From Methanocorpusculum parvum (GTDB lineage: Archaea; Halobacteriota; Methanomicrobia; Methanomicrobiales; Methanocorpusculaceae): a stretch of DNA of 64,000 bases. Both the position numbers and the translations under genes were made by a program. A model generated the notes under the pieces. The model ran no database searches. It was given only the letters and a program-made list of their open reading frames with translations, and was not told where the DNA came from. How positions within the stretch are numbered: position 1 is the first letter of the stretch; the number at the start of each line of letters is the position of its first letter. The stretch is from contig LMVO01000045.1 in assembly GCA_002287215.1 (NCBI GenBank), forward strand, positions 1-64,000, given 5' to 3'. Of the stretch, positions 18,017-60,885 are shown one piece after another.

Positions 18017-18017
18017 C

Positions 18018-19096: not shown

Positions 19097-19181
19097 ATAC
19101 TCAGATAATATGTTCTGTGTTTAAATGTTATTTCTGGTGAATGCGCAGAATTCATCTTATGTCTAAAATTATTAATAGAAA

Positions 19182-21270: not shown

Positions 21271-21692
21271 GAAATCACCAGCCCGTCTTGTGCATAAATG
21301 ACACTATCGGCCGTTGTCAGCCGCAGACTGTAGCTATCGGACGACACTGCCGAAAGATCAACTGCATAACATCCTCCCAGATCAAAAACTGCAGACTCAT
21401 TTCCGAAACAGTCTGTAAGGGAAATTTTCTCAAGAACAAGTTTCTCTCCTCCCGCGGAGGGCGTCAACGCTGCAGTAAGTTCTTTTCCTTCAACCCAGTC
21501 CCCCCCTTTGTGCCAGAAATACAGTGTGTCGGCCGATGAATTCATCGAAACATCAACAATGGTCTCGCGTTCGCCCGGCAGCAGATTAAATGCAGATACC
21601 GCAAACAGGGATACCAGTATAAGTATCAGAGCCAGAATCAGCATCTCTCCGGCGACCGATGTGATTCCCTCATCTTGTTTAGTTAATTCCAT
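21267..21692 (-). CDS. Pilin-like secreted protein with class III signal
   Basis: A 141-residue protein, MELTKQDEGITSVAGEML then a hydrophobic helix, followed by a beta-rich part with two cysteines (in SLTDCFGNES and GGCYAVD) that could form a disulfide. The ATG at 21692 has AGGTG six bases upstream; a GTG at 21701 immediately after the previous stop is the alternative start. The Glu in the hydrophobic segment fits the pilin family. Confidence 0.8.
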   Translation of the reverse strand: MELTKQDEGITSVAGEMLILALILILVSLFAVSAFNLLPGERETIVDVSMNSSADTLYFWHKGGDWVEGKELTAALTPSAGGEKLVLEKISLTDCFGNESAVFDLGGCYAVDLSAVSSDSYSLRLTTADSVIYAQDGLVIS

Positions 21693-21701
21693 GGATTTCA
21701 C

Positions 21702-23513
21702 CTAGATAATATATACAAATGTTATGATTGTTGCAATAAGCATGATAATCGAATGTTTGAGTCCGCAGAGAACACTGTTTGACGACATCTGTCCTGCCAT
21801 GATTCCTGAAAAAAATGCCAGAATAATGCCGATGTTAAACATGTCCGTCTTGTTTGACGTCAGGTCGAAGGTTATGTCAAAAGACGAGAAACTTGAGATG
21901 AATGCAACGTTCATCTGATATGCCGAGTAGAGATAAATTCCGTATGAGAGATAAATGACCGCAAGATAGACAAACGAGACATTCAGACGCTTGCTTTTCA
22001 TCTTAATATAATGTTCCAGATCAGAGATGGCGATCGTTAAGATCTCCCTGACGTAATCTGTAACTTCGCTTGCTTTCACTAATAACGAGATTGCTCTTTT
22101 TACTGAAACGAGGCCGATACGTTCTTCCATCCTGACTAAAGCGTTTGAAAGATGCGCCCCGTAGGAAAGTTCCTTTGTCACGATTTTAATTTCCGAGGAA
22201 AGAACGCCGGTTTTGTTTCCGGAAATCATTGATATGGCTCCCTGAAGTGTCATGCCGATATCACGCATATCGGCAATTTCCCGCAAGAATTCGGGAAGCT
22301 GTTTTTCCACTTTGGTAACGTAGCGTCTCCGAATCTCGTACGCCGTCATCAGCGGAAGGGAAGCTGCGATAATGATAACGCAAATGAGGACTTCCATTGT
22401 CATTGACGGAAATATTTTTGCAAAAGTACCTGTGATCCAGGATACGCATACAAAGGACGCAAGTAGCACACCGATGATTCCCGGGATTGTATAATCCGAT
22501 ATGAAAAATTTAATCGGGTGCCTTAGGATATCGAGATATCTGATGATCTTTTTTCGTGCATTGATCTGTTTGATGAACTCGGCATCCGGCTCGGTATGTG
22601 TTTCCGCATCAAGAAGATCCGTTCCGTATTCACTGTCTCTGATCTCCCTGCTGGCAATCCCGAGATTATCCGGCGGCAGGAGAATATACAGGATCACAAT
22701 CAGTATTATTGCGCCAAGCGGCAGGAAAATCATCATGATCGGCATAATATTTCCCATAGTATTCTGACCTGAAAGGTTCTGGGCAACGAGCATGATCATG
22801 ATGGCAATCGGACCGGCAACAAATGCCGTAACATAAACCTCTGCAATCATTTCCAAAAACTGCAAGAGGGCATCCAGCTGCTGTCTGGCAATTTCACGGT
22901 AGGACTCTGATTTGGAGTTGAAGAAGTTCCTCATATTGCCGCCGCTTCGGTAGACAAGAGCCAGATCGTTGAGTAATTCCCGGAAATTTTCCGAAGGTGT
23001 TATTTTGATGGTGTTCTCTATAGCCGTCAGCAGATCTTCCCCAAACAGCTCTACATCTCTGACAATGAGTCCGCATTCCCGCGAAACTTCTCCGTAAAGG
23101 TCAGCTGCTTCATATACGTTTCGAAAAATCTCATACAGAGTGATCGTTGATGATAATGCCTGCATGTAGGTTATTGCAAAGGGAAGATCCTGTTCGATTT
23201 TATTTCTCCTGCCCTGTGCCTCCAGAACCGGGTAATAATAAAAGCAGATGAAGACACCTATTGGAATAAGGATACAGCTGACGGTAATCAGGATCCACAC
23301 CGGCAGAAAGGAGAGGAAGGGAATTGTAATGCCCATAACCGTTATGAGGACTCCTATCAGTACAGTCATAATGCCGGAAAATCCGGTTATCAGTATCGTA
23401 AGCATCATGTACTGATCTACAGGAACGGTAATATGCGCCGAGCGCAGGGCATTTTCCAGTTTTGTATTGAAAAGGATTGTATCGAGTATGTCGGGATTTT
23501 GTCTCATGTTCAA
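21702..23513 (-). CDS. Type IV pilus/archaellum-like membrane assembly protein (TadC/PilC family)
   Basis: A 603-residue polytopic membrane protein with two T2SF domains (about residues 110-230 and 400-520), each followed by membrane helices. In related systems this protein is the inner-membrane platform that couples the secretion ATPase to pilin insertion. It lies 6 bases downstream of the ATPase gene and directly before the pilin genes. Archaellum genes flaC-flaH are absent, so this is a pilus rather than an archaellum locus. Confidence 0.9.
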   Translation of the reverse strand: MNMRQNPDILDTILFNTKLENALRSAHITVPVDQYMMLTILITGFSGIMTVLIGVLITVMGITIPFLSFLPVWILITVSCILIPIGVFICFYYYPVLEAQGRRNKIEQDLPFAITYMQALSSTITLYEIFRNVYEAADLYGEVSRECGLIVRDVELFGEDLLTAIENTIKITPSENFRELLNDLALVYRSGGNMRNFFNSKSESYREIARQQLDALLQFLEMIAEVYVTAFVAGPIAIMIMLVAQNLSGQNTMGNIMPIMMIFLPLGAIILIVILYILLPPDNLGIASREIRDSEYGTDLLDAETHTEPDAEFIKQINARKKIIRYLDILRHPIKFFISDYTIPGIIGVLLASFVCVSWITGTFAKIFPSMTMEVLICVIIIAASLPLMTAYEIRRRYVTKVEKQLPEFLREIADMRDIGMTLQGAISMISGNKTGVLSSEIKIVTKELSYGAHLSNALVRMEERIGLVSVKRAISLLVKASEVTDYVREILTIAISDLEHYIKMKSKRLNVSFVYLAVIYLSYGIYLYSAYQMNVAFISSFSSFDITFDLTSNKTDMFNIGIILAFFSGIMAGQMSSNSVLCGLKHSIIMLIATIITFVYII

Positions 23514-23519
23514 CTCCCA

Positions 23520-25268
23520 CTATGCTTTTCGTTCACGCAGAATCGTCTCGATAATTGCCTTTTCCACAGCATCCGGGTTGGTATGTCCCGAAGCCGCCAT
23601 CTCATCGAGAGCTTGTTTTTTGCTGTTGATCCTTTCTTTCAGTTGTTTATCGGTCCAGCCGTTCTGATAGGCAATGCTGTCGAAAACTGCGGAGTGAGTA
23701 TAGACTTTATCAAACCGGTCCGTCGTGTGGTTCCACTGAAACAGGGGTGTCCATGCAATTTTATCATCATTGACCGTGATCTCGTTTAAGGATAAACAGC
23801 GCCTGAATCCTTTTCCTTCTCCGTAGAGCAGACTTTGAATGACGACAAGATTAAGAGCTCCAAACATTGCCGCAGGTACATTGATAGGATCATTGACGAG
23901 CCGGTTAATCGCTTCCTTGACGTTTCCGGCATGCAGGGTTGAGTATGTTGTATGTCCGGTGTTCATTGCCTGGAATAATGTCTGGGCTTCTTCGCCCCTG
24001 ACCTCTCCGACAATGATATACTCCGGTCTTTGTCTAAGTGCAGCTTTTAACAGCGAAAACATGCTGACGTTTCCAACACCGGAAACATTTGACGTACTCT
24101 CACGCGTTTTCATCGGGAGCCAGTTGACGTGGGGCAGCTGAATTTCCCGCGTATCTTCGATTGAAACAATTTTGGCAACCGCCGGAATAAAAAACGACGC
24201 TGCATTCATCGTCGAGGTTTTACCACTGGCCGTTCCGCCGGCAATAATCATACTTTTTCTGTTTTCCACAGCGAGCCAGAGGTGTGCCATGAGTTCGCTG
24301 CTGTAGGTATTCGAGACGACAAGATCAGCCGGGGTCATTGGTTCGGCTTTGAATTTCCTGACGGTAAAGGAACTTCCTTTGGACGAAATAATGTCCGAGT
24401 AGGTCAACTGGACACGCGAACCTTCCGGAAGTGCTGCATCGATAATCGGCGAAGTTAAGGATAGCTGTTTATCTCCTCTCTGAGCAAGTTTCAAAACGTA
24501 TTTGTTCAGCTCGGTCGAGTCAAAAAGAATGTCGGTTTCAACGTTGGCAAATCGTCTGTGATAGAGGAAGATGGGGATGTCTGCACCATTGCAGGTGATA
24601 TCTTCGATCTTTTCATCATGCATAAGGGGGTCAAGTTTGCCGTATCCCAGAAAGTTTCTGTTGAGGAAGTACACAAGCGTGTCACGTCTTTCCGGTGTTA
24701 TGTCCGGGTCAAAGTTGGTTATGACTTCCCTAAGAAGGTATGGATCAAGTTCAAGTTCTCCGCGTTTTCGCACCGTGTCGTAGACAAGCATGCTTCTGAG
24801 ATGTTCGAACGTTTCCTCTAAGACAACGAGCTCTTTTTCGTTGAGTTTCGGCTCTACCATCTGGTAATGGACATTGTCGTACTCATCGCGGTAAATGTTG
24901 GCGTATGCATACGGCGGGGTGAGCCAGTATCTGTCGAGAATTTCATATTCGGTTTCAAACGGCGGCAGGTGGAGAACCTGCGGCGGCTCTTCAAAGACGG
25001 TCTTTTGTTCAGGTTTTCCGGACAGAAGAGATTTGATGCTGAAGGTGGTTTCTTTCGTTTCGGCAGATTTCTTGTGGGTTTTTGTCTTCTTCAAACGTGC
25101 AGATGGTTTCTTTCCCTCTTTCTTTATGTCCATGGGGGCTTGGTTTTTTTCTGCTGAACTCGTCATATTTTCCGAGAAGATCTCTTTGATAACTGCGGAC
25201 TCATCTTCTTTCGTCACAGAAAGTACGGTAGTTGTTTCATCCGTTTTTTTGAATGAGGGAAGACGCAT
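23520..25268 (-). CDS. Secretion/pilus assembly ATPase (VirB11/PilB/TadA family)
   Basis: A 582-residue ATPase. The first 80 residues are Lys/Glu/Thr-rich and probably disordered. An N-terminal domain (about 100-310) precedes the ATPase core with Walker A GGTASGKT (344-351), Asp box SIEDTREIQLPH, Walker B YIIVGEVRG (417-425) and His box GHTTYSTLHAG. It powers pilin assembly at the membrane together with the TadC-like protein encoded next. Its start overlaps the stop of the transglutaminase-fold gene by one base. Confidence 0.92.
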   Translation of the reverse strand: MRLPSFKKTDETTTVLSVTKEDESAVIKEIFSENMTSSAEKNQAPMDIKKEGKKPSARLKKTKTHKKSAETKETTFSIKSLLSGKPEQKTVFEEPPQVLHLPPFETEYEILDRYWLTPPYAYANIYRDEYDNVHYQMVEPKLNEKELVVLEETFEHLRSMLVYDTVRKRGELELDPYLLREVITNFDPDITPERRDTLVYFLNRNFLGYGKLDPLMHDEKIEDITCNGADIPIFLYHRRFANVETDILFDSTELNKYVLKLAQRGDKQLSLTSPIIDAALPEGSRVQLTYSDIISSKGSSFTVRKFKAEPMTPADLVVSNTYSSELMAHLWLAVENRKSMIIAGGTASGKTSTMNAASFFIPAVAKIVSIEDTREIQLPHVNWLPMKTRESTSNVSGVGNVSMFSLLKAALRQRPEYIIVGEVRGEEAQTLFQAMNTGHTTYSTLHAGNVKEAINRLVNDPINVPAAMFGALNLVVIQSLLYGEGKGFRRCLSLNEITVNDDKIAWTPLFQWNHTTDRFDKVYTHSAVFDSIAYQNGWTDKQLKERINSKKQALDEMAASGHTNPDAVEKAIIETILRERKA

Positions 25269-27004
25269 CAGATTCCTCCCGCATATGCCGTATTTTCGCT
25301 TTTGCCTGAGAATTCGATTACAACCGAGGCATATACATTTCGGGAAAATATGCCTATCGCATAATGTCCCGGCGGATAGATTCTGCTTGTATCATATGTA
25401 TCTGCATTTGTGTGGCCCTGCCATCCGGTAATTTCCACTAATGCAACACTGCCGTCATCGCCGATTTTATAAACTGCGATGTTCAGATCGGCATACGGCG
25501 TCATATAGTCCATATCCGTATCAAGAACGTTCTGATCATAGATTCCGTCGATAGTGTAGGTTATTCTCCAGGGTGTTTCGATTACCTGCTCTGCTGTCCC
25601 GGCCGGGGTATACAACGTTCCCGGAGTTCCTTTTACTGTCAGGAAATGTTCATAGAGTTTCCATTTGTCGTAGAGGATATCCCATGAGATGCCTGACGGA
25701 TACCACGTGCTTTCCAGATATTTCTGTGCATTTTTCTGCTGTTCGACCCCCAGGTAATAATCGGCATTCATTTCCGAGACATAGATCGGCGAGTAAACCG
25801 GATGGCCTGCCGCCCAGAATTTTCCCCCGGTAAGAGTTGAGTCTGTTGTTGGAAATTCAGTTGACAGGTCCAGATCAAGGAGTAATCCGAGGTCAAGTTG
25901 GTCTTTATGTGAAGAGTCGCATGAGTTCATGCTCCAGAGTATGTAGGTCTGAATAACGACCGGTGTCTGTGAATTATACGCAGAGACCGGTGTCCCTTTC
26001 GAGGCAGTATCTGCAATCCAAACTGTTTTTACCGGCACGGTCCACGAAGCATTTTCTATCGTGTAGGTAATTTTTTCGTTGGCGCCGATGTTTTGTGGGA
26101 AGTCAGGCGTGAATTCTGCCGAGAAGGAATTGGATGACGGAACATAGCGTGCATATCCAAGGGATCCGGACAGATTACCTATATTCCAGGTTCCCTTCCC
26201 TGCATACCATCCTTCGGTATCTTTGCCGGATGGATTTACTGCGTTAGTAACTCCGTATAGTGGATATACCGTCGTTTTTTCAGCGCTGACACTAACTGTC
26301 TGTTTAGGATACGTCGTGTTTACTCCGTAGATCATTCCGTTTTCCGGGTCTGTTCCAATCAGTCCAAGGGCTGTTGCTTCCGGAATTATTGTGAGGCGGT
26401 CATATTTCAGCGGGTAATACAAAAGTGCCGATGCATATCCCATCTCTTCTAAAAGAGCTGATGCCAGAATAGACAGATCTTCGGAATCACCTGTCTCATC
26501 CGCAAGGGTAACTACCGGTGCCCGAGGATAATTCGATGAATGTCCGGTTTCTTTGTCTGTCTGGTAAGAGAGGGACTTAACAAACGAAAGCACGAAATTT
26601 ATCGTATCTTCACTTTCATACGAATTTTTCTTTGCAATCTCGGAAAGCTGCCGTGCTGTATCGGCAATACAGCCGCCGTCTCCGGAGATGATGATATAGT
26701 TGCTCAAATCATTCGGGATGTCTGTTCCTCCAAAATCGGTGTTGTACCTGTTGTATGCATCTTTGGTTACCAGAACTGTTACGATGTTTTTAACACCGTT
26801 GTACTCCCATTCAAATGTTTTCACCCCCCAGGGTCCGGTTTGTTCCGTTATGTTTTCCGGATTATCTGCGTGTTGTTCCGGTGTAAATTGGGAAAATCCT
26901 CCGTTTCCAAAAAAGATGATGGCGGCAACCGTTATTACTATAACAATTCCCATTCCAATGATCAGATTCCGGAATGTTTTTTTGCTAAGCTGTATGGATG
27001 CCAT
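25268..27004 (-). CDS. Membrane-anchored transglutaminase-fold protein with altered active site
   Basis: A 578-residue protein with an N-terminal membrane anchor (about 13-32) and a large outside region. Residues about 125-200 read as a transglutaminase-like domain: TINFVLSFVKSLSYQTD, PRAPVVTLADETGDSEDLSILASALLEEMGY. In the family the motif is GDCED with the catalytic Cys; here residue 174 is Ser, and no clear catalytic His follows. The rest is beta-rich and unknown. The gene lies between the surface protein and the ATPase with overlapping ends, so it belongs to the pilus system, perhaps as a structural or binding protein. Confidence 0.75.
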   Translation of the reverse strand: MASIQLSKKTFRNLIIGMGIVIVITVAAIIFFGNGGFSQFTPEQHADNPENITEQTGPWGVKTFEWEYNGVKNIVTVLVTKDAYNRYNTDFGGTDIPNDLSNYIIISGDGGCIADTARQLSEIAKKNSYESEDTINFVLSFVKSLSYQTDKETGHSSNYPRAPVVTLADETGDSEDLSILASALLEEMGYASALLYYPLKYDRLTIIPEATALGLIGTDPENGMIYGVNTTYPKQTVSVSAEKTTVYPLYGVTNAVNPSGKDTEGWYAGKGTWNIGNLSGSLGYARYVPSSNSFSAEFTPDFPQNIGANEKITYTIENASWTVPVKTVWIADTASKGTPVSAYNSQTPVVIQTYILWSMNSCDSSHKDQLDLGLLLDLDLSTEFPTTDSTLTGGKFWAAGHPVYSPIYVSEMNADYYLGVEQQKNAQKYLESTWYPSGISWDILYDKWKLYEHFLTVKGTPGTLYTPAGTAEQVIETPWRITYTIDGIYDQNVLDTDMDYMTPYADLNIAVYKIGDDGSVALVEITGWQGHTNADTYDTSRIYPPGHYAIGIFSRNVYASVVIEFSGKSENTAYAGGI

Positions 27005-29440
27005 TCACTTCCTCCTGAGATAGGGGACAAGTCCCGCAAAAATTGCCGGGACAACGTAAATAAAGCCGGATGATTTTGTCTGGGTAGGGATAGGTGTTGA
27101 AACCGGCAGATTTGTCTGCACCGGTTCCGGTGTCTGCTGGGTGGTTAGGGCTGGATCATATGTTTCACCGGTAACCGTTGAGTCAACTTCCGATTCCCCT
27201 CCAACGGTAAATGTCATGGCGGTTGTAACCCCGGTGTCGATGTTGGTGACTTTTGCTTCATAGGTTCCCGGGAACCAGGTTGACGTATCAATTTCACCAA
27301 ACGAGAAGGGACGCGACATATACTTTGCATAGGGAGATACAGATGACGGTTGTATCCGTTCTGTTGGGATCATCATTGCTATGTTGTTGTCCGGATTTTC
27401 AAAATCAAGTCTCTGAATCTTCAGACTGAAGGTGTCATCGGTGTAGTAATTCGTGGTTCCTTGAATTGTTATGGTGGTTCCAATGGGGGTGTTTCCCAAT
27501 TGGGTTATTTCGATCCTTGGTTTTTCAATAGTAAATTCCGTGATAACATACAAATCGTCTGAATTGGGATCGGAGATCGCATTTGTTAAGGTATATGCAG
27601 CATTATCAGACTGCTGTGTTCCAAGATTGGCACTGCTGCCCCAGGCTGTGTTAATTACGCTGAAAGATCCTCCGGTTATATCCGGCGTTACGTCAAATAC
27701 AGCGTTTGGACCGGGATGCTGAAGGATAAGATAGTATGTTCCCGGACCGAGATCATAGGAAAACGACCGGTTGTATTCAAAACTCGTTGTTCCCTGAGGG
27801 GCAAAAAGTCCGAACATTGAGGTGTCTTCGATCAGTAGATACTTTGATTTCATATCCGCATATCTGAAGTTTGATCCAATGATGTACCAGCGGACGTCAC
27901 CATACATACCTCCCTTTGTTCCCGGACTCCCTCTTGCAGAGATATTATAGCGAAGATAATCACCTTGGGTAAAGTAACCACTATTGGTCTCGTCGGATTT
28001 TGCGTGAATGCTCTGGTCACTTATCACATAATCATGAGATATATCACTGCTGTATCCCTTCCCCTTCGGTGTGCTGCTTTCTCTGTATCCATAGGGTTGG
28101 AGATTGGCATGTATCGTGTAGGTTCCCGGTTCAAATCCGCTGGTGATCCACCCTCCCTCCCATAAATTAAGCACTATGCTGTAGGTAAATATGGTAAATG
28201 TTGATGGATCTCCGTCAACGACGGGTGTTCCAGTCAGACTCACACCATTTTCAGGAAGGTTTGGTCCGGTTATATAGAAATAAATATCAACATTGGATAG
28301 TGCACCTTTTACCGTGCCGGAAAGTTTGATGTAATCGCCTTCTGCAAAGAGACCAGATACGGCATCACTTGGCGGGGCATCAAATATCAGCGAAATGGTG
28401 GTTGCAGCAACAGTAATCGATGCACTTTTTACTGTGCCCGATCCCGAGGCCGTTATCGGATAATTGCCGGCCGATGCATTGGCGGGTACCGTTATTGGAA
28501 GGGACACGGTCCCATTCCATCCGGGTGTCGCGGTAATTGTATGAGCATCAATGATGACCACTCCCTCGGCAGGATTAAAATAAGGTGTGTCGCTTCCGGT
28601 TTCAGAAAGTACAACAGTATAGGCAGTAAAGGGGATGCCGGTCAATACAGCCGTGCCGGTGTTGCCTGCAGCAATATTTGCTCCGGTAAGACTGAAAGTA
28701 CTTTGTACTGCAGTAAAGGAGTATTGAATTTGTGTTTTTTGTGTTGGAAGACCGTTCAACTCTATGTTAAATGAAATCGTGACCGGTGTTGAGTCTCCGG
28801 CAGGGATCAGGGACTGATCAACCAGTTTAAATGCATAATTCGCATTGGTTTTATCGGTCGGATCGGGTACATTCCTGAGTGACTGAGTGCTGCCCCCGAT
28901 ATTTGTAATCTCCTGCGTCTGAACCCCTGTCTGGGTATTTGTGATAGTGAATCCGTTCCAGTTTCCATTTAGTTGATCAGGATGGAGATTACTTCCGGAA
29001 ATATAAAAGACAACTTGAGCTGCTTTTGAGATCGAGTTCGGATTTGAGTCGGTAACAGTAGTTGCATAAGGAGTCACTGCGATTTTCCCAAGATTAAGTT
29101 CCGCGATAGTGCATACCGCAAATCCCAGTCTGCCAATGGAATTATTCCATGCTCCATATGTTCCCGGAGCCTGTGTTTGTCCAACCGAAGCGATCTGATT
29201 TATGAGGGCAATCTGATCTCCGTCAGTTACATGCTGAAGGTAGTCGACAGTATAACCTCCACTTGAAAATGCTGAAAAATCCAGATTATTTTCTCCTCGA
29301 TACACCGTATCACTCAGATTTATTCCTGCATTCTCACCCGCTGCAGTTGCATATCTTGCCGATACCGTTCCGGTAAACAGACAAAGTATGATTCCTGCAA
29401 GGAGTATAATTGAAATAATATTTTTCGTATTCACAGACAT
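27005..29440 (-). CDS. Large surface protein, DUF3821-type, with C-terminal anchor
   Basis: An 811-residue secreted protein: signal peptide (about 1-30, ending VSARYA), an N-terminal domain of the DUF3821 type seen in Methanomicrobiales surface proteins (DTVYRGENNLDFS and later), several Ig-like or beta-sandwich segments, a Pro/Thr-rich stalk (PEPVQTNLPVSTPIPTQT) and a C-terminal hydrophobic helix ending YLRRK. The ATG at 29440 has a strong AGGAGG site. It is the first gene of the eight-gene minus-strand operon, so it may be an adhesin or cell-surface partner of the pilus. Confidence 0.78.
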   Translation of the reverse strand: MSVNTKNIISIILLAGIILCLFTGTVSARYATAAGENAGINLSDTVYRGENNLDFSAFSSGGYTVDYLQHVTDGDQIALINQIASVGQTQAPGTYGAWNNSIGRLGFAVCTIAELNLGKIAVTPYATTVTDSNPNSISKAAQVVFYISGSNLHPDQLNGNWNGFTITNTQTGVQTQEITNIGGSTQSLRNVPDPTDKTNANYAFKLVDQSLIPAGDSTPVTISFNIELNGLPTQKTQIQYSFTAVQSTFSLTGANIAAGNTGTAVLTGIPFTAYTVVLSETGSDTPYFNPAEGVVIIDAHTITATPGWNGTVSLPITVPANASAGNYPITASGSGTVKSASITVAATTISLIFDAPPSDAVSGLFAEGDYIKLSGTVKGALSNVDIYFYITGPNLPENGVSLTGTPVVDGDPSTFTIFTYSIVLNLWEGGWITSGFEPGTYTIHANLQPYGYRESSTPKGKGYSSDISHDYVISDQSIHAKSDETNSGYFTQGDYLRYNISARGSPGTKGGMYGDVRWYIIGSNFRYADMKSKYLLIEDTSMFGLFAPQGTTSFEYNRSFSYDLGPGTYYLILQHPGPNAVFDVTPDITGGSFSVINTAWGSSANLGTQQSDNAAYTLTNAISDPNSDDLYVITEFTIEKPRIEITQLGNTPIGTTITIQGTTNYYTDDTFSLKIQRLDFENPDNNIAMMIPTERIQPSSVSPYAKYMSRPFSFGEIDTSTWFPGTYEAKVTNIDTGVTTAMTFTVGGESEVDSTVTGETYDPALTTQQTPEPVQTNLPVSTPIPTQTKSSGFIYVVPAIFAGLVPYLRRK

Positions 29441-29485
29441 TGTCCTCCTGCTTCCGATGTAAAGGATGCATATGATCTGCATCAA

Positions 29486-29728
29486 AACGCAGAAAGCAAG
29501 TTAATTTAAGTTTGCACCATTTATTGTGAATTTTATTTTATTAATTATTTGTACGTTAGATATGCTTTGCATATCTGAAATCATGTCTGATAAGCATATT
29601 TAATCACCAAATATGATTTCAATCCTGATTTGCAATTTATTTATATTGTTTTTAATCTAATATGTGACTGCAAAAAATTATTTTAGTTATACTCAATTAA
29701 TATGATTTAATTGGGTGGGGAAAATCGT
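29486..29728. promoter_or_regulatory. Divergent promoter region between the two pilin operons
   Basis: This AT-rich region separates the minus-strand pilus operon from six plus-strand pilin genes. It holds two perfect inverted repeats: AGATATGC/GCATATCT (29558-29565, 29569-29576) and TGAAATCAT/ATGATTTCA (29576-29584, 29613-29621). Candidate TATA boxes are TTTATTTATATTG (about 29634-29647) and TTATACTC (29686-29693) for the plus strand, and an A/T-rich box near 29500 for the minus strand. The repeats are placed as operators for a shared regulator. Confidence 0.5.
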
Positions 29729-30364
29729 ATGAAAAAAACAAAGATGTTGAAAAAACACAGATCCGATCGGGATTCTGCAGTATCTCCGGTTGTCGGTGTT
29801 ATGCTGATGCTGGTTGTAACAATTATTGTTGCAGCCCTTGTCGCAGCATTTGCCGGCGGTATCGGAACGACAACAGAAGCTGCACCTACAGCCTCACTTG
29901 ATGTTTCTCTCTTCATAGGGCAGGGTTCTGCCATGATTGAAAACATTGCCGGGGATACGCTGCCGACGAAAGATTTGCTGATCACCGTATCGTATGGCGT
30001 TCCGGTAAAGTTTGCCAATAAGGCTTTGGATCACGGCGGAGAAACGATCATCCACACGATCGACGGCAGACTCGAACCTACAGCTGAAAACGACCTTAAC
30101 ACAACATTGGCAGACTATCCATTTGTGTATCAGATCACCAACAACAATGCGACCGTCAGTAAACGAACGGTAAACAATCAGCTCTTTGGTCAGGCTGATT
30201 TGGTTTCAGGGAGTTCCATTGCTTTTGATTTGAATTATTTCGCAGGTTTCGATACTACGAAAGCAAAAACATACGGCATAGACACCGGAACCAGGTTCCA
30301 TGTAACGATCGTTCACATTCCGACCAGCACCGTCATTTATGACAAGGATGTGAGAATCCAATGA
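29729..30364 (+). CDS. Archaeal type IV pilin (tandem pilin 1 of 6)
   Basis: A 211-residue protein with a charged leader (MKKTKMLKKHRSDRD), then SAVSPVVGVMLMLVVTIIVA and an extracellular beta-rich domain. The leader is the longest and most basic of the six. The ATG at 29729 follows GGTGGGG; a TTG six codons upstream is a less likely start. It overlaps pilin 2 by 4 bases. It is a candidate major pilin by position, which is inference. Confidence 0.9.
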   Translation: MKKTKMLKKHRSDRDSAVSPVVGVMLMLVVTIIVAALVAAFAGGIGTTTEAAPTASLDVSLFIGQGSAMIENIAGDTLPTKDLLITVSYGVPVKFANKALDHGGETIIHTIDGRLEPTAENDLNTTLADYPFVYQITNNNATVSKRTVNNQLFGQADLVSGSSIAFDLNYFAGFDTTKAKTYGIDTGTRFHVTIVHIPTSTVIYDKDVRIQ

Positions 30365-31038
30365 AATCCAAAAACAAAGAGTCCGGGGTCTCCCCGGTTG
30401 TCGGCGTTATGCTGATGCTGGTTGTAACGATCATTATTGCAGCAGTAGTAGGGATGGTTGCATCCAATTATGTCGGAAGTACGGAGGCATCGCCTATGAC
30501 AAGGATCAACTATCTTGGTTCTGTTCAGGGAAATGATTTTGAAAACGGCTTTTTAGGCGAAGTCGGCCTTCTTTTTGAAAATGCCGGCGGTGAAAATATT
30601 GTCCTGACAAATCTGGAGATCACTCTGCAGGAAAATACCCGTGGTGTTGTGAATGAAACGACAATTACGTTTAATGACGCTCCGTCAACCGCGATTTCCG
30701 GCATCCTGACACCCGGAGAAGCCCGTCTGTCTACTACACCGTCGGCCAAAAAGGTTGACTACCGGATGAAAAAGGTAGGCGTCACGATGTCATACGGGAA
30801 GTATCTTGCGTATCAGACCATTGAGCCGGGAGACCGCTTCATCATTTATGCCGACCGGATTATCCAAAGTGATACATCAAAGTACAGTCAGCTCTACATG
30901 GTTGCAACGAGAGACGGCACATACTCGGAAGGATTTTTCGAGATTGGTCCGGGAACGGTTTACACAATTAAAGATACATCAACGGGCAATGTCATTGCAT
31001 CGGGTGATCTGTCCGGAAAGGTGTATGATTATATCTGA
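30361..31038 (+). CDS. Archaeal type IV pilin (tandem pilin 2 of 6)
   Basis: A 225-residue protein, MKSKNKESGVSPVVGVMLML then a hydrophobic helix, with a C-terminal domain unlike that of pilin 1 (ENAGGENIVLTNLEITL, RFIIYADRI). This C-terminal layout, with a charge-flanked beta motif and an ending TVYTIKDTSTGNVIASGDL, recurs in pilin 4 and in the minus-strand pilin at 19530-19991. A 17-base gap follows before pilin 3. Confidence 0.9.
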   Translation: MKSKNKESGVSPVVGVMLMLVVTIIIAAVVGMVASNYVGSTEASPMTRINYLGSVQGNDFENGFLGEVGLLFENAGGENIVLTNLEITLQENTRGVVNETTITFNDAPSTAISGILTPGEARLSTTPSAKKVDYRMKKVGVTMSYGKYLAYQTIEPGDRFIIYADRIIQSDTSKYSQLYMVATRDGTYSEGFFEIGPGTVYTIKDTSTGNVIASGDLSGKVYDYI

Positions 31039-31055
31039 AACAGGAGTGTTGAACA

Positions 31056-31745
31056 ATGAACATTATGAAAAAAACACATAATTCACAAAAAGACAGCGCA
31101 GTATCCCCTGTTATAGGAGTTATGCTGATGCTGGTCGTAACCATCGTTATTGCTGCATTTGTAGCAACATTTGCCGGGGGTCTGTTTTCAACATCTGAAG
31201 CAGCGCCGGTTGCATCGATAGACGTAAAAATTCTCTACAACTCCGGATATACCGGAAACGATTGTGTCATGTATATCGAAAATCTAGGCGGAGATTCCAT
31301 CTCCACATCGGATCTGCGGATCTTGACCTATTATACATCCAAGACCGGTTCAAAGGCGGGGACTATCAAAGGTGATCGTACAGCAATGAATACCAGATCA
31401 ATTACCGTTACCAATTCAACTGGAGCAACAGGTCAGAAAATCGTTGCACCGATTCTCTTAAATGCGGCATATGGTGACGCTGCAACTGATAACACTGCCA
31501 TAAACTTCGGCAACTACAATTTTGCACCTGGAACGATCATGAGTACCTACAGCAATGAAGGAACTGCCTACATTCTTATGGGTCAGACAAGTTCCGCAAA
31601 TCAGCTGAAATATCTTAACAAATATGATGGCGACACCATCAATGACGGCTATACTGACTTTGGAATTGGATCAAACGTGCACGTTGAAATTCTCCATACC
31701 CCGTCGAACAGTGTTTTGTACAGCAAGGATGTGATCGTAGCATGA
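31056..31745 (+). CDS. Archaeal type IV pilin (tandem pilin 3 of 6)
   Basis: A 229-residue protein with N-terminus MNIMKKTHNSQKDSAVSP followed by the VIGVMLMLVVTIVIA helix. The body shares with pilin 1 the ending of the type HVEILHTPSNSVLYSKDV, so pilins 1, 3 and 5 appear to be one subgroup and 2, 4 and 6 another. It overlaps pilin 4 by 4 bases. Confidence 0.9.
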   Translation: MNIMKKTHNSQKDSAVSPVIGVMLMLVVTIVIAAFVATFAGGLFSTSEAAPVASIDVKILYNSGYTGNDCVMYIENLGGDSISTSDLRILTYYTSKTGSKAGTIKGDRTAMNTRSITVTNSTGATGQKIVAPILLNAAYGDAATDNTAINFGNYNFAPGTIMSTYSNEGTAYILMGQTSSANQLKYLNKYDGDTINDGYTDFGIGSNVHVEILHTPSNSVLYSKDVIVA

Positions 31746-32395
31746 AATTCATGACAAAAGATTCTGCAGTTTCACCGGTTGTCGGTGTTATGCTGATGCT
31801 GGTTGTAACAATTATTGTTGCAGCAGTAGTTGCAGCATTTGTCGGCGGCATTACGAGCGATGAACAGATCGCGCCAAGCGTCAATTTTGATGTGTCCTAT
31901 GCAGCAGGTATTTCAGATGCCGATAAAACGAACAGCGTGCCGGATTATTCTTCATCGGCATCAAAAAACAACGGATTTGTCTTCAAACTTCTTGGGGGGG
32001 ACTCTGTTCAGCTTGATAAGATAAAAATCATGCTGACAAGCGACGGGTCGTCGATAACGTTTGATCCAAGTATCTATCGTGATCAGACAAGTCCTGTCGT
32101 AAATGAGGCAGCTATTGATGTAATGCTTGGAACCGATAAGACAAGCGAGACCTACTTTGCGGTTGCCAATAATCTGGACACGACAATTTCGGTTGGTGAG
32201 TCATTTATTCTTCTTGCTGACGGATATTACGACAACACAGATGATGTATCTGCTGTTAAAACGGGAAAATTCCTTCTCTGGACCCCGGCAACGGGCGGCA
32301 GATTTGTCGTTCAGGAACATGTTCCGGTAACCTATACGATATTCGACACAATTACCGGCAAGCAGATCCAGAAAGGAACAATCACCATCAACTGA
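31742..32395 (+). CDS. Archaeal type IV pilin (tandem pilin 4 of 6)
   Basis: A 217-residue protein with a very short leader (MKFMTKD) before SAVSPVVGVMLMLVVTI. The body contains GFVFKLLGGDSVQLDKIKIML and ends with VTYTIFDTITGKQIQKGTI, related to pilin 2. Translation is coupled to pilin 3 through an ATGA overlap. Confidence 0.9.
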   Translation: MKFMTKDSAVSPVVGVMLMLVVTIIVAAVVAAFVGGITSDEQIAPSVNFDVSYAAGISDADKTNSVPDYSSSASKNNGFVFKLLGGDSVQLDKIKIMLTSDGSSITFDPSIYRDQTSPVVNEAAIDVMLGTDKTSETYFAVANNLDTTISVGESFILLADGYYDNTDDVSAVKTGKFLLWTPATGGRFVVQEHVPVTYTIFDTITGKQIQKGTITIN

Positions 32396-33118
32396 ATGGA
32401 TGTGAAGAGAATGCGAACAGATAATGAAAAAAATGACGGGGTATCCCCGGTAGTCGGTGTTATGCTGATGCTGGTTGTAACGATCATTGTTGCAGCACTG
32501 GTCGCAGCATTTGCAGGAGGACTCGGCTCTGCAGCTACCCCTGCCCCTTCCGCAGGCTTTGACTTCACCATTCATGCCGGCGGAAAAACTGCCTCCTATC
32601 CTGGAGTTGTATGTGAAATACCGGTTGCTACTGGAGAATTTACCTCAAACCAGCTGAAGATTATTACGACTTATGTTGTTCCAGACACATACAACGGTGT
32701 CCCTCTCACGAATGCGGGAAAGACAATCACCCATACCATCACAGGTCAGGTTGAGGATTACGGCATTGATCTGAGCAGTGGAAGCGCCTCTGTAGGCTGG
32801 GGTTCAGCTCCGGTTTATTCTGCCTCTGATGATCCCTTTGTTCCAAAAACACAGGTTTATAATGCTCCAATTGTCGCAACCACCGGCAACGGTCTGACTG
32901 TGGGGTATGACATGAACGATTATCTCTACTTTGGAGGTAATGCTCCAATCGCAAGCGGTACTGAATGGTGGTTTAAGGAGATCGATCGATTCCTTGGTTT
33001 CCCAACCACAGAGAGGACGATTTATGGATTTACTGAAGGGTCAGTAGTTCACATAACGGTGATTCATGTTCCCTCGGGAACCGTACTCAGCGATCAGGAT
33101 GTGACTGCATTATGGTGA
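32396..33118 (+). CDS. Archaeal type IV pilin (tandem pilin 5 of 6)
   Basis: A 240-residue protein with NDGVSPVVGVMLMLVVTIIV at its N-terminus and a body ending HITVIHVPSGTVLSDQDV, like pilins 1 and 3. The ATG at 32396 directly follows the stop of pilin 4. An in-frame ATG at 32411, preceded by GGATGTG, would give a leader of more usual length and may be the true start. Confidence 0.88.
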   Translation: MDVKRMRTDNEKNDGVSPVVGVMLMLVVTIIVAALVAAFAGGLGSAATPAPSAGFDFTIHAGGKTASYPGVVCEIPVATGEFTSNQLKIITTYVVPDTYNGVPLTNAGKTITHTITGQVEDYGIDLSSGSASVGWGSAPVYSASDDPFVPKTQVYNAPIVATTGNGLTVGYDMNDYLYFGGNAPIASGTEWWFKEIDRFLGFPTTERTIYGFTEGSVVHITVIHVPSGTVLSDQDVTALW

Positions 33119-33123
33119 TTTCG

Positions 33124-33840
33124 ATGAAACGTTCAGGGGAAAAAGATGCAGGTGTATCGCCGGTTGTCGGTGTTATGCTTATGCTTGTTGTGACGATCAT
33201 TATTGCAGGCATTGTCAGCCTGACGGCAGCCGGTTTTATGGATTCAACCGGTACACAGACTGACGAGCCTCAAATCGAGTTTGTCGGTCTTTATACTGCA
33301 GGATACACAGCAGCAACGGTGAGTAGTATTGCCAAGCAGACATATCAGACGGAAGCAGCGGGTCTTTTGTTTAAGGTAGTCGGCGACAAGCCGGTTGATT
33401 TAACGAAGATGAAACTCTATCTTGCAAGCGGCCAGAGTTCCGGCGGCGGGGGGTCTGTTGACCTTGGCTATGATGACCCGGTTTCAACAGCCTATCTTCC
33501 TGGCGGTAGTAGTTGGAATGGAAGAAGTCAGATAATTCTCCCTCCGGAATACATGAGAGGCTATCGTATCGTGATGTTTGGTCTGAGTGAAGATGATCCG
33601 ACCATTCATAACACGATCGCAGATCCGGGAGATATGTTCATAGTTTCATGTGAGTACGTCAACCCCTCAAGTCCAAGTCTCGCTATCGGTCTGAGAAAAG
33701 ATGATGCAGACGGTAACACTGTTATCAGTGCCGGAATCGGCGCAAACGGTGATGCAATACTGACGCTGGTAAATGCCGAGACTGGATACGTGTATGTGAG
33801 ACATACGTTGATCGAATCGGATATGATCGCAACGGTTTAA
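33124..33840 (+). CDS. Archaeal type IV pilin (tandem pilin 6 of 6)
   Basis: A 238-residue protein, MKRSGEKDAGVSPVVGVMLM and a hydrophobic helix that is slightly divergent (IIIAGIVSLTAAGF). The body contains GLLFKVVGDKPVDLTKMKLYL, like pilins 2 and 4. The ATG at 33124 has GGTGA five bases upstream and overlaps no more than the last bases before the pilin 5 stop; an ATG at 33112 is the alternative. It is the last gene of the plus-strand pilin operon. Confidence 0.88.
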   Translation: MKRSGEKDAGVSPVVGVMLMLVVTIIIAGIVSLTAAGFMDSTGTQTDEPQIEFVGLYTAGYTAATVSSIAKQTYQTEAAGLLFKVVGDKPVDLTKMKLYLASGQSSGGGGSVDLGYDDPVSTAYLPGGSSWNGRSQIILPPEYMRGYRIVMFGLSEDDPTIHNTIADPGDMFIVSCEYVNPSSPSLAIGLRKDDADGNTVISAGIGANGDAILTLVNAETGYVYVRHTLIESDMIATV

Positions 33841-33872
33841 TTCTGATCTGCTCTCAAAACAGATTAACTGGG

Positions 33873-33901
33873 GAAGAATGCCCATTCTTCACCAATATTT
33901 T
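33873..33901 (+). terminator. Terminator of the tandem pilin operon
   Basis: A perfect 8-bp stem GAAGAATG/CATTCTTC (33873-33880, 33883-33890) with a 2-nt loop is followed by ACCAATATTTTT. Confidence 0.7.
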
Positions 33902-34334
33902 TCATCCAAAAAATAACTCCACATCCCCTTCATTTATGTGCGGATCTTCCATGCAGGGATGCATGGATGTATTTTACTTTCTGTGCGTGTTTCCGGCTGG
34001 TATTTTTTCTTATCAGTAATGGTTGGAACCCTGAACTGTACAGATGGCAGACCTTGGCAACGTATCCGTGATACCTGATATCTACATTACCTTGATTGGA
34101 ACATAAACTGCGCGCACATTTTGATAATGCATCATCCATAGTAAACGTAATTTATTTAATATTGCTCACAGGGTAATCTGAAAATCGTATATGTTTTCAT
34201 AAATATTGCCGATACTTCAGTTTTTATGTTTGGTATATTCATGTGTCTGGTGAAGAGCCATGAGCAATATATATATACGATTAAACAGATAATTTTTATT
34301 TAACTAAATATAATTGGATGAGCGCTGCGCAATT
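33902..34334 (+). promoter_or_regulatory. Intergenic region with promoter of the HTH-PAS gene
   Basis: No gene is supported in these 433 bases; a 69-codon minus-strand frame shows no family features. CAATATATATATACG at 34265-34279 is a strong TATA box, which would place the transcript start near 34300, about 35 bases before the ATG at 34335. The rest shows no clear structure. Confidence 0.45.
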
Positions 34335-34937
34335 ATGGATATAAATTCGGTGAATGTTCCCTCCCTAAGAAATTCGAAAGAATCCGGACTTAATATGATA
34401 ATGTTTCATTTAAGAAACAGCAAGTTCGGGCTTTCAATATCCGACATTGCAAAAAAAACAGGATTGAATAGAAATACGATATCCCGATATCTGACAGTAC
34501 TTGCAACACTGGGTCAGGTCGAGATACGCACTGTTGGTCCTTCACATGTGTATCAGTTGTCCGAACGTCTTCCAATCTCGCCGCAGTTTCTGGCAGTACA
34601 ACCCGAACCCACGATCATTGTCAATAACGAAGGCATTATTCTTGCATTAAATTCATACATGCAGGAGAGTCTCGGAAATAACCTTGGAATTGATACAAAA
34701 AACCTTGTCGGGAAAAATTATAAGGAACTTAATGTTGAGTTATTTAACATAATAACTGCTCTGCCTGAGTATGTAAATGCGCTGAACGGAAAAATGCCTA
34801 CGGTTGGAACATGGACACATCTGGAAACTGCAGCTGCCCGTTACCGGCTCTGGATACTGCCAATCATATTTTTTGATGGGATTCCCGGAATCATGATTCA
34901 GGCGGAGACATGGATTTGTCCTGAGGGAAGGAAATAA
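34335..34937 (+). CDS. HTH-PAS regulator (short form)
   Basis: A 200-residue protein with an N-terminal winged helix-turn-helix (ISDIAKKTGLNRNTISRYL, about 38-56, then QVEIRTVGPSHVYQLSER) and a single PAS-like domain (about 86-190, PTIIVNNEGIILALNSYM). The HTH segment is clearly related to that of the large multi-PAS protein at 49093-51243. It stands next to the tandem pilin operon and may regulate it; that is inference. The ATG at 34335 is chosen over an upstream TTG. Confidence 0.75.
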   Translation: MDINSVNVPSLRNSKESGLNMIMFHLRNSKFGLSISDIAKKTGLNRNTISRYLTVLATLGQVEIRTVGPSHVYQLSERLPISPQFLAVQPEPTIIVNNEGIILALNSYMQESLGNNLGIDTKNLVGKNYKELNVELFNIITALPEYVNALNGKMPTVGTWTHLETAAARYRLWILPIIFFDGIPGIMIQAETWICPEGRK

Positions 34938-35007
34938 CATGCAATGTTAAGAGGATATCCTTCGTCAAATGGCATATTAGCGTAATACCCCCCACTCCGG
35001 AAAATAA

Positions 35008-35796
35008 TTATTTTGCCGGTTTCTTCACATGAGTCTTCAGTTTCTCCCAGATCTCCGTATGTTTCAGCGAGACCGAGCCAGGGTAGGCTTTGGCCATACG
35101 CCGGCTCTGGTAATGGAATTTGGAAATGACCAGACTCTCATCCACGCGCTCCTCGATTTTTTCATGGAGCGTATCGCGGATCTTCGCTGCCTCGACAAGG
35201 GTAATGTCCACTCTGGCGTTGATGATCTCTTCCGCTGCATGAAGCCGTTCGTTGAGTTTCAGGAGAGAGGAAACCGTGATAATGATATCTATTGCTAAAA
35301 TTACACCAATGATCCCGGCTGCGATATTTATCACCATGTCCGGTATTTGGGTCGTTGTGTGGGTGGTGAGCGGTTCAATGACCATTATGAAGAGGACCGA
35401 AAGGAGACCAAAGAACAGTGAACATTTCAGACAGATCCTTCCCTGAAAGTTGAATTTATTTTTTGAGTAGTCCCATAATTTAATGTGGAAAAATAATTCT
35501 AATATCACAGAAACAGTATATTCAAGAATCGTTGCGAGCAGCATTCCTCCGAAAAATGCCACGAGAATATTGATGAGATTGAAGGCGACTGCCGGCGTCG
35601 GAAGAGCAAGAGTTCCAAATGCGTTCACGGCAAGCATGACGAGAACGGCCCCAAAACCATAGATCGGGATGACTGGTCCGTTTAAAAATCCGCGGTTGAT
35701 GAAATGTTTGGCTTTTACTGAGCAGTATGTCGTTTCCCAGATCCATCCAAGAAAACTGTAAAAAATGAACCCGAGGAAGTAGGCTGCTGGTATCAT
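35008..35796 (-). CDS. Putative ABC transporter permease-like membrane protein (CmpB family)
   Basis: A 262-residue membrane protein. Residues 1-185 hold about five helices with the family pattern near the start (FYSFLGWIWETTYCSVK, NRGFLNGPVIPIYGFGA, EYTVSVILELFFHIKLWDYS). The last 75 residues are a charged, helical cytoplasmic tail. The family is annotated as a putative ABC transporter permease but its function is unknown, and no ATPase gene is adjacent. Confidence 0.75.
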   Translation of the reverse strand: MIPAAYFLGFIFYSFLGWIWETTYCSVKAKHFINRGFLNGPVIPIYGFGAVLVMLAVNAFGTLALPTPAVAFNLINILVAFFGGMLLATILEYTVSVILELFFHIKLWDYSKNKFNFQGRICLKCSLFFGLLSVLFIMVIEPLTTHTTTQIPDMVINIAAGIIGVILAIDIIITVSSLLKLNERLHAAEEIINARVDITLVEAAKIRDTLHEKIEERVDESLVISKFHYQSRRMAKAYPGSVSLKHTEIWEKLKTHVKKPAK

Positions 35797-36062
35797 GAGT
35801 TACTTTAGGTCGAGTCAGGTAAAAAAGATACGGGAGTCAAGTTTGCCCAAGATGGCCGATTTTCGACCAGTTTGCCCGAAAAAATGTCCTTCTCGCGATC
35901 TAGATGGCCGATCTATGGCCTAATGTCCGTTTTTTATCTTTGAAACCTGAGCGTCCTCGTGAATTGGACAAAGGTTTTCTCCTAAGATCGAATAATAGTA
36001 CAGACACGAGAATCGTATAGTGATCGTACAAAGTCGAACCGATTTTGTGAGCATACCTACCC

Positions 36063-58882: not shown

Positions 58883-59812
58883 TCAGAGCCGGTCGCCGAC
58901 GTTCAGATAATGACCGTTCACGATCTCAAAGCCCGGCATCTCGCGTTTTCCTTCCGGTTTTGCAGAAAGAATGCACACAGCGCCGTCTCCCGTCATCACG
59001 ACAGGTCCCTTCTTTTTTATCAGACCGACGATCTCTCCCGGCTCTCCGGCATACTCTCCGGAGACCTTTTCTGAGCGGTAGATCTTCAGGAGTTTTCCGT
59101 CCGGAAGCCTGGTGTTTGCTCCCGGAATCGGGGAAAGCCCGCGGATCCTGTTATGCACCGTGGCCGCCGGAAGGGTCCAGTCGATCACACACTCCTCTTT
59201 CGAGATGGAGGGGGCAAACGTCACCTTCGCTTCATCCTGGGGAGTCCGGGTGACCTCCCCCGACACGATCAGGGTCAGCGCCTCGGTCAGCGCCTGTGCC
59301 CCGAGATCGGCCAGATGGTCATGTACCTCGCCGTAGGTTTCGTTTTCCCCCAGGGGAACCGATTTGGAAAGGATCACATCACCGGCATCCAGACGCGAAG
59401 CCACGTACATGATCGAGACCCCGGTCTCACAATCCCCGTTCAGCACAGAATACTGCATCGGAGCTGCTCCCCGGTACTTCGGCAGAAGCGAGCCGTGCAG
59501 ATTGATCGTGTTGTATTTCGGGAGATCGATGATCGCATCCGGGATCATCATCCCGAATGCCACAACGACCGAAATATCCGGGGAAAGAGCCTTCAGCTGT
59601 TCGAACAGAGCCGGATCCTTCATATCCTCCGGCTGAAAAACCGGGATCCCGTGTTCGAGAGCGAACACCTTCACCGGCGAAAACTCGACCTTGTTTCCCC
59701 GCCGGTTTGGTTTATCGGCCCGGGTCAGGATCCCCACGATCTCGTGCTCTGCAGAAACCGCACGAAGAGAGGAAAGGGCATACTCCGGCGTTCCCATGAA
59801 AAGGACACGCAC
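58883..59812 (-). CDS. fmt: Methionyl-tRNA formyltransferase
   Basis: Fmt adds a formyl group from 10-formyl-tetrahydrofolate to initiator Met-tRNA, a bacterial step not normally present in archaea. The 309-residue protein is full length. The catalytic domain has MGTPEYALSSLRA, VVAFGMMIPDAIIDLP, INLHGSLLPKYRGAAP (Asn and His of the active site) and SRLDAGDVIL (catalytic Asp). The C-terminal beta domain (about 205-309) binds tRNA in bacteria. It starts one base after the def stop, the usual bacterial def-fmt order. Acquisition from bacteria is the simplest explanation. Confidence 0.93.
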   Translation of the reverse strand: MRVLFMGTPEYALSSLRAVSAEHEIVGILTRADKPNRRGNKVEFSPVKVFALEHGIPVFQPEDMKDPALFEQLKALSPDISVVVAFGMMIPDAIIDLPKYNTINLHGSLLPKYRGAAPMQYSVLNGDCETGVSIMYVASRLDAGDVILSKSVPLGENETYGEVHDHLADLGAQALTEALTLIVSGEVTRTPQDEAKVTFAPSISKEECVIDWTLPAATVHNRIRGLSPIPGANTRLPDGKLLKIYRSEKVSGEYAGEPGEIVGLIKKKGPVVMTGDGAVCILSAKPEGKREMPGFEIVNGHYLNVGDRL

Positions 59813-59813
59813 G

Positions 59814-60302
59814 TTACGCCTCCTTTCGGGTCAGATCCTCGAGCTGCTTTGCGATCATCTTTTTTGCGATCGGCGATACCTTATCGACAAATAAGATCCC
59901 CTCGAGGTGATCATACTCGTGCATGAAAACCCGGGCAGGATAATCCTTCAGCTCCTCTTCGATCAGCTCACCCGCTTCATTCGTGTATCTGACCGTGATG
60001 CGCCGTGGACGGCGGACTTTTTTATGGATGCCGGGAACGGAAAGACAGCCCTCCTCCATCTCGGCAAAGGCGCTGCCGGTTTTCAGGATCTCCGGGTTGA
60101 TGACTTTTCTGAGTTTGTCTCCCGGATCCATCACAAAGAATCGTTTCCCGATCCCGATCTGCGGAGCTGCAAGACCGACTCCGCGGTGTTCTTTGAGCAT
60201 CGGGACCATCTCATCAAGAATGGCTAAAAGTTCAGGGGTTATCGTATCAACCGGTTCGGCGCGTCTGGCCAACACCGCTTTTCCGTATATCTGAATCTCC
60301 AT
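59814..60302 (-). CDS. def: Peptide deformylase
   Basis: Def removes the formyl group from the N-terminus of new proteins. The 162-residue enzyme has all three motifs intact: GVGLAAPQIG (about 42-51), EGCLSVPG (metal-binding Cys) and HEYDHLEG (metal-binding His pair with catalytic Glu). Size is typical of type 1 bacterial enzymes. It is followed directly by fmt. Peptide deformylase is not expected in archaea, whose initiator methionine is unformylated. Confidence 0.95.
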   Translation of the reverse strand: MEIQIYGKAVLARRAEPVDTITPELLAILDEMVPMLKEHRGVGLAAPQIGIGKRFFVMDPGDKLRKVINPEILKTGSAFAEMEEGCLSVPGIHKKVRRPRRITVRYTNEAGELIEEELKDYPARVFMHEYDHLEGILFVDKVSPIAKKMIAKQLEDLTRKEA

Positions 60303-60432: not shown

Positions 60433-60615
60433 TTAGAACCGGTTCCGTGGGGTCCGGTGTTTTGGAAGGCATTCCTGACAGTAGACTGGTCTGCCTTCTG
60501 TTGGCTTGAACGGTACCTCACATTCTTTTCCACAGTCTGAGCAGACTGTTTTGGTCATTTCGCGTGGGCCGTCATTAAACTGGCGTGGTGCGCCAAAATT
60601 ATTTCTTCTTTCCAT
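60433..60615 (-). CDS. Small zinc-ribbon protein
   Basis: A 60-residue protein with the pattern CSDCGKECEVPFKPTEGRPVYC and CQEC, which is CxxC-x17-CxxC, the small zinc-ribbon family seen in archaea and bacteria (sequence shown in parts; Cys near 25, 28, 46, 49). The flanks are rich in Arg, Asn and Pro. The ATG at 60615 is preferred; an ATG at 60636 gives seven more residues. It precedes def by 130 bases on the same strand. Its role is unknown; nucleic acid binding is a guess from the fold. Confidence 0.78.
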   Translation of the reverse strand: MERRNNFGAPRQFNDGPREMTKTVCSDCGKECEVPFKPTEGRPVYCQECLPKHRTPRNRF

Positions 60616-60885
60616 GATAGGATTTCCTTGGAGCATAAATGCTCACGAAAAAAACAATGAGACAAAAAAGTCTTACTGATATTTCCCACAGATAACTGCG
60701 ACTCTTTATACGCCTCCCTGGGATATATAGTTGTGTATACCAGCAGAGAACGCCGCCGGACGGTTTGACGGAAGATCCGGGACTGAATATCCCGCGCACC
60801 GATCCGCGTGCCGGAATGAGCACACAAAACCCCTTATGTATAACGACGACCAATAGTTACCCACATATTGAGTGAGGGAAAACTC
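60616..60885. promoter_or_regulatory. Divergent promoter region between zinc-ribbon gene and ileS
   Basis: GATATATAG at about 60721-60729 is the best minus-strand TATA box, giving a leader of roughly 80 bases for the zinc-ribbon gene. TTATGTATAAC at about 60834-60844 is the likely TATA box of ileS, with a leader of about 20 bases containing GAGGG. No gene is supported between. Confidence 0.4.

Follow-up and report, generated by a model that had tools for sequence, protein, structure and literature searches.

The stretch of Methanocorpusculum parvum DNA analysed here (the window; 64,000 nucleotides) carries a gene for peptide deformylase (def, encoding Def1) and one for methionyl-tRNA formyltransferase (fmt) on its minus strand; a second deformylase (Def2) is encoded elsewhere in the genome.

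59814–60302, minus strand: def (Def1), canonical peptide deformylase; ATG start, 162 aa; above the cut-offs of PF01327, TIGR00079 and NF001159
58883–59812, minus strand: fmt, methionyl-tRNA formyltransferase with both domains; GTG start, 309 aa; above the cut-offs of PF00551, PF02911 and TIGR00460
60159–60182, minus strand: Def1 motif I, GVGLAAPQ
60039–60053, minus strand: Def1 motif II, EGCLS (motif definition from PMC12690207)
59907–59921, minus strand: Def1 motif III, HEYDH (HExxH)
59669–59722, minus strand: Fmt residues 31–48, RADKPNRRGNKVEFSPVK, equivalent of the E. coli acceptor-stem docking loop
59702–59704, minus strand: codon of Fmt Arg37 (E. coli Gly41)
60868 onward, plus strand: ileS, divergently transcribed relative to def-fmt
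L057:7643–8161, minus strand, that is, G000:C1:144672–145112, outside the window: Def2, second deformylase

Def1 scored 165.7 bits against PF01327 (cut-off 22.8), 137.4 against TIGR00079 (cut-off 103.95) and 155.9 against NF001159 (cut-off 125), and its best solved relative is the peptide deformylase 1lme (E 3.1e-43). Motifs I, II and III are all present, the second within EGCLSVPG, and we take the cysteine of EGCLS to be a metal ligand. Fmt matched the TIGR00460 equivalog with 283.8 bits over profile positions 1–304 of 315 (cut-off 201.5) and the C-terminal domain model PF02911 with 78.6 bits; sugar formyltransferase models scored far below their respective cut-offs. Its best solved relatives are the Met-tRNA formyltransferases 4iqf (2.8e-68) and 1fmt (1.1e-67), and N104, H106 and the Asp of LD[AS]GD (D142/D145 region), which we take to be the catalytic Asn, His and Asp, are conserved in 21/21 archaeal rows. 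Both proteins meet the sequence criteria of their families, formylation and deformylase activity being inferred from sequence. One base separates the end of def (59814) from the start of fmt (59812), in the order def-fmt. The original prediction, that a methanogen carries a bacterial-type def-fmt pair, thus held both for complete canonical genes, as judged by family profiles and motifs, and for the 1-base spacing in bacterial order. This order is shared with the bacterial operon, including annotated records of Pusillibacter, Bacillus velezensis, Paenibacillus and Sinorhizobium, and both archaeal enzymes are likewise full length with catalytic motifs. Annotation pipelines are likely to have named both genes already.

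Upstream of def and on the same strand lies a 67-aa ORF (60433–60636, minus strand) whose product contains a treble-clef zinc finger (66.1 bits against PF23477), present in 4 of 13 loci. Farther away, positions 18001–36000 of the window have a GC content of 0.37–0.47 per 2-kb step, against ~0.49–0.55 elsewhere, and are possibly an acquired island.

The two genes are adjacent and on one strand at every locus read, 21 from as many genus genomes and one from Methanomicrobium mobile (22/22); this count leaves out four genus genomes that are 61–79% complete (G001, G013, G022 and G023). Across 392 genomes of the phylum, other archaeal phyla lying outside the survey, Fmt exceeded the cut-off in nine, all of the genus Methanocorpusculum. 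The same cut-off was passed by 10 of 14 control genomes, as many as there are bacteria in that set, the other four being archaea. Fmt-model matches below the cut-off, the best with 177 bits, occurred in 249 further genomes of the 392 and, as far as examined, are other formyltransferases. A scan of named genomes identified the closest Fmts in Methanocorpusculum (87% identity to Methanocorpusculum sp. UBA424) and M. mobile as the sole archaeon outside the genus among 79 of the 235 loci of relatives. The M. mobile Fmt (63% identity to the window Fmt, 278.4 bits) adjoins its own Def1, with Def2 ~15 kb away; otherwise, its surroundings resemble the compared stretches of the genus genome G015 only in two weak matches, at 22% and 32% identity.

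Deformylase was found in 24/25 genus genomes, 20 of which gave two matches, some partial, in none of eight sister-genus genomes, and in two of 28 other genomes of the order (G049 and G054), both divergent. The phylum-wide count was 13/392, made up of 9/9 genus genomes, G159, and G227, G286 and G312 from another family. Neither Fmt nor formate–tetrahydrofolate ligase (Fhs) exceeded its cut-off in any of these six genomes outside the genus. Their lone divergent deformylases (L157–L159 in G312, G227 and G286, L160 in G159, and those of G049 and G054) could be real or contamination.

The original prediction had left the formyl donor open and proposed a search for genes of 10-formyl-tetrahydrofolate (10-formyl-THF) synthesis. 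The window genome does encode Fhs (905.8 bits, cut-off 652), as well as PurN (TIGR00639, 246.5 bits, cut-off 150.1), a user of the same donor, which narrows the question, tetrahydrofolate being inferred. Fhs is present in 19/25 genus genomes, among them 12/12 at ≥90% completeness; the six without a match are all 61–85% complete. No Fhs above cut-off was detected in 36 relatives outside the genus. FolD, on the other hand, was found in 14/14 other Methanomicrobiales tested and exceeded its cut-off in 0/9 genus genomes tested, including that of the window, although G004 and G008 gave hits below the threshold. The 10-formyl-THF source thus appears to be swapped, from FolD in relatives to Fhs in Methanocorpusculum (L058:7216–9030, minus strand). 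M. mobile has FolD and lacks Fhs, so that both lineages with Fmt have one donor route apiece. With Fhs and PurN both encoded, 10-formyl-THF made from formate can serve PurN as well as Fmt; Fhs may have been acquired for Fmt or for purines, and purine synthesis alone could explain it. Methanomicrobiales are named among PurN users in PMC3261824, according to which any organism with PurN is expected to contain tetrahydrofolate; elsewhere, that paper refers to 'four Methanomicrobiales' without purN or purT, its examples there being Methanobacteriales. We consider it likely that the encoded route yields 10-formyl-THF, tetrahydrofolate in the genus remaining an inference. The second deformylase, Fhs, PurN and the failure to find FolD all lay outside the sight of the original prediction.

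Only one tRNA in the window genome, which is 95% complete, has the initiator anticodon-stem pattern, and a second, bacterial-type initiator tRNA was rejected on these grounds. The initiator acceptor stem reads A1:U72, G2:C71, C3:G70, G4:C69 and A73 in 19/19 copies from 18 genomes, ten with Fmt and eight without. The C1xA72 mismatch of bacterial initiators is therefore missing throughout, and the initiator tRNA has gained no 1:72 mismatch in Fmt-bearing genomes. The Fmt identity elements listed in PMC13234167 are G2:C71, C3:G70, G4:C69 and A73; since the stem is identical in genomes with and without Fmt, these elements pre-existed in the archaeal tRNA. Among six genomes checked, none had bacterial IF-2 above the TIGR00487 cut-off. 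Co-adaptation of initiation factors was also considered, but the 29 aIF5B columns that differ between four genomes with Fmt and two without are indistinguishable from lineage drift and permit no inference; aIF2-gamma is present in all six of these genomes.

Fmt docks on the acceptor stem of its tRNA through a loop (PMC13234167), whose Arg42 equivalent is present in 21/21 archaeal Fmts. In 54 alignment columns, a single residue is shared by at least 90% of 61 bacterial Fmts. The 21 archaeal rows conserve it at the same level in 42 of these columns, and three of the 12 not kept (window residues 31, 32 and 37) fall within seven residues in this very loop. At residue 37, the equivalent of E. coli position 41, archaeal Fmts have Arg (14) or Lys (7), whereas the 71 non-archaeal ones have Gly (64), Asn (3), Asp (3) or Ala (1), and never Arg or Lys. 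This comparison leaves out two viral rows regarded as duplicates (L224 of L223 and L226 of L225) and the short or partial L227–L229. The single Ala belongs to Fusobacterium, the nearest bacterial relative. On the first Fmt tree, the pattern corresponds to one gain of a basic residue followed by two Arg/Lys changes. Charge at residue 31 was dropped as an archaeal feature because Fusobacterium also has Lys there, and residue 32 is Val in Fusobacterium and likewise in some archaeal rows; the changes at these two residues may predate the transfer, since Fusobacterium also departs from the bacterial norm.

E. coli Fmt variants with Gly41 changed to Arg or Lys were reportedly selected by Ramesh et al. 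1997 (PNAS) as suppressors for an initiator tRNA with a paired 1:72. If so, archaeal Fmt carries the change expected for its A1:U72 substrate, a basic residue at the same docking-loop position, with the difference that in archaea it is natural and clade-fixed and the substrate pair is A1:U72. The pairing of formyltransferase with G41R was not found in the open-access literature searched. The possible link to A1:U72 rests on one event on a long branch. Moreover, the E. coli enzyme accepts the initiator Met-tRNA of yeast for formylation in vivo (Ramesh et al. 2002, cited in PMC13234167), indicating that a non-bacterial initiator can be an Fmt substrate and that, Gly41 being sufficient there, Arg/Lys at position 41 is not strictly needed. 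That laboratory construct also confronts a bacterial Fmt with non-bacterial initiator tRNA and initiation factors; the archaeal case, by contrast, is natural and accompanied by a deformylase. The yeast mitochondrial Fmt is described in the same review as rejecting the cytosolic initiator tRNA.

Phylogenies of both proteins, advised in the original prediction as a way to find the donor, place each beside Fusobacterium. Its Fmt is the sister of the archaeal Fmts (bootstrap/SH-aLRT 100/99), and its deformylase is the sister of a group uniting archaeal Def1 and Def2 (99/94), themselves mutual sisters (99/91). A single donor of def and fmt followed by def duplication is the simplest reading, but it depends on one Fusobacteriota genome and on long branches; in that genome, def and fmt lie ~430 kb apart. 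An earlier Fmt tree without Fusobacteria had placed the archaeal Fmts among Oscillospiraceae-type Clostridia, a candidate donor of fmt that was withdrawn when the addition of ten non-archaeal rows rendered Fusobacterium the sister. M. mobile Def2 is nested among the Def2 sequences of Methanocorpusculum (99/86), and both Fmt trees likewise draw the M. mobile Fmt within that genus (SH-aLRT 95 in the first; 95/95 with Fusobacterium). An AU test on the first Fmt tree did not reject the alternative to this nesting (p 0.38). We therefore only lean towards a transfer into M. mobile, the direction that the Fmt and Def2 trees favour and whose alternative the test does not exclude. The Fmt trees leave out the partial matches L080 and L111; both Def trees leave out rows shorter than 130 aa and the majority of near-duplicate loci from the genus, together with the long branches L101, L120 and L160 (first tree) or L109 and L157–L159 (tree with Fusobacterium).

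Nei–Gojobori dN/dS ratios, scored for pairs with dS<1, were 0.064–0.137 for fmt (10 of 21 pairs), 0.054–0.138 for def1 (11 of 21), 0.037–0.147 for def2 (4 of 15) and 0.021 for fhs (1 of 6); fmt, def1 and def2 are under purifying selection. Def2 displays the motifs C[VI]GLSAPQ, EGSPC[IV]PG and HEKDHH at 10/10 loci read, nine from genus genomes and one from M. mobile. In motif II a serine occupies the usual cysteine position and a cysteine follows two residues later, so that the sequence departs from the EGCLS definition. Its scores are below the cut-offs of TIGR00079 (93.1 vs 103.95) and NF001159 (114.7 vs 125), yet above that of PF01327. In its altered motifs I and II, Def2 may resemble the type 3 peptide deformylases, described as occurring in Archaea (PMC12690207); Def1, by contrast, is canonical.

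The genes are shown directly, as are their conservation, selection and phylogeny, the distribution of Fhs and FolD, the sequence of the initiator tRNA and the change in the docking loop. Beyond these, we propose as likely that this archaeon acquired a working bacterial-type N-formylmethionine cycle, in which tRNA formylation, initiation with fMet and deformylation are inferred. In this scenario, def and fmt would have passed from a Fusobacteriota-like bacterium into the ancestor of Methanocorpusculum, where Fhs, in place of the FolD of relatives, would convert formate into 10-formyl-THF. Fmt would then place the formyl group on the methionine of the ordinary archaeal initiator tRNA, the extra positive charge of Arg/Lys at position 41 of its docking loop putatively suiting an acceptor end closed by A1:U72 rather than the bacterial C1xA72. 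Because no bacterial IF-2 was found, aIF2 and aIF5B are proposed as the users of the formylated tRNA, and Def1 would strip the formyl group from nascent proteins. Duplication of def would have given rise to Def2, with its altered motifs I and II, and the gene set would also have been exchanged with M. mobile. Such a cycle would differ from the bacterial one in its archaeal host, its A1:U72 initiator and the lack of a detected bacterial IF-2, and, on the archaeal side, in Arg/Lys at Fmt position 41 and a second deformylase with altered motifs. A bolder reading, which we hold to be more likely than not, is that two methanogen genera naturally initiate with formyl-methionine, with Fmt retuned at position 41, the Methanocorpusculum Fhs route having replaced FolD, and aIF2/aIF5B accepting fMet-tRNA.

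The need for the enzymes had been left open by the original prediction, which weighed initiator formylation against other substrates. Under the latter alternative, Fmt would formylate some other amine or aminoacyl-tRNA, whereas Def would cleave small formyl peptides. The Fmt superfamily does include sugar and purine formyltransferases, and enzymes of this kind, scoring under the Fmt cut-off, occur in many relatives across the phylum. However, the TIGR00460 score is far above its cut-off and sugar models far below theirs, the C-terminal tRNA-binding domain and the Arg42 docking loop are conserved, and a canonical deformylase is tightly paired with Fmt in 22/22 loci, which makes this explanation very unlikely. 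The Arg42 loop, the initiator determinants and the archaea-specific Arg/Lys one position before Arg42 lend initiator Met-tRNA formylation the better support, activity being unproved. Bacterial contamination or misassembly might be suspected from bacterial-type genes in a draft genome of 1.71 Mb in 47 contigs. It is all but excluded because 21 genus genomes share the arrangement, including two assembled as single contigs, by the presence of the pair in M. petauri MG and M. mobile BP, both named strains, and by GC and GC3 values of fmt (0.576/0.684) and def (0.526/0.620) like those of neighbours such as ileS (0.541/0.674), the GC of the pair resembling nine other window genes. The original prediction had judged contamination unlikely on account of the adjacent ileS; that judgement held, through genus-wide conservation.

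Formylation could also be real but useless, an addictive remnant acting as a ratchet: with its initiator formylated by Fmt, the cell could no longer dispense with Def, and purifying selection would keep both. In favour of this view, def and fmt remain adjacent and constrained, there is no bacterial IF-2 to profit from fMet, and FMT loss is milder in E. coli (PMC13234167). On the other hand, Fmt itself would then be freely losable, and yet it is retained and constrained genus-wide with an archaea-specific change in its docking loop, so we regard the ratchet as unlikely. Relative to the original prediction, the preferred reading of an acquired formylation cycle comes out stronger: its genes are shown to be complete, conserved and apparently retuned, whereas its function is inferred, fMet itself being unmeasured.

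Initiation with unformylated methionine is a standard mark of archaea. The 2026 review PMC13234167 describes archaea as lacking FMT and, generally, canonical PDF; contrary to this, the enzyme set for a formylation cycle is complete, genus-wide and under selection in Methanocorpusculum. No paper joining Methanocorpusculum and deformylase appeared in the open-licence literature searched, although a report elsewhere cannot be excluded; for Methanocorpusculum and formyltransferase, passages of PMC3261824 concern purine enzymes, and neither Methanocorpusculum nor Methanomicrobiales is named in the part of the open-licence formylation literature examined. If true, the acquired cycle would constitute a natural hybrid of archaeal and bacterial initiation, in which the role of formylation without bacterial IF-2 becomes testable. 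It predicts that Methanocorpusculum and M. mobile are sensitive to deformylase inhibitors, for example, actinonin, and that both produce formyl peptides of the kind sensed by animal receptors. The Fmt of the genus is also a natural candidate where tRNAs whose 1:72 positions are paired need to be formylated.
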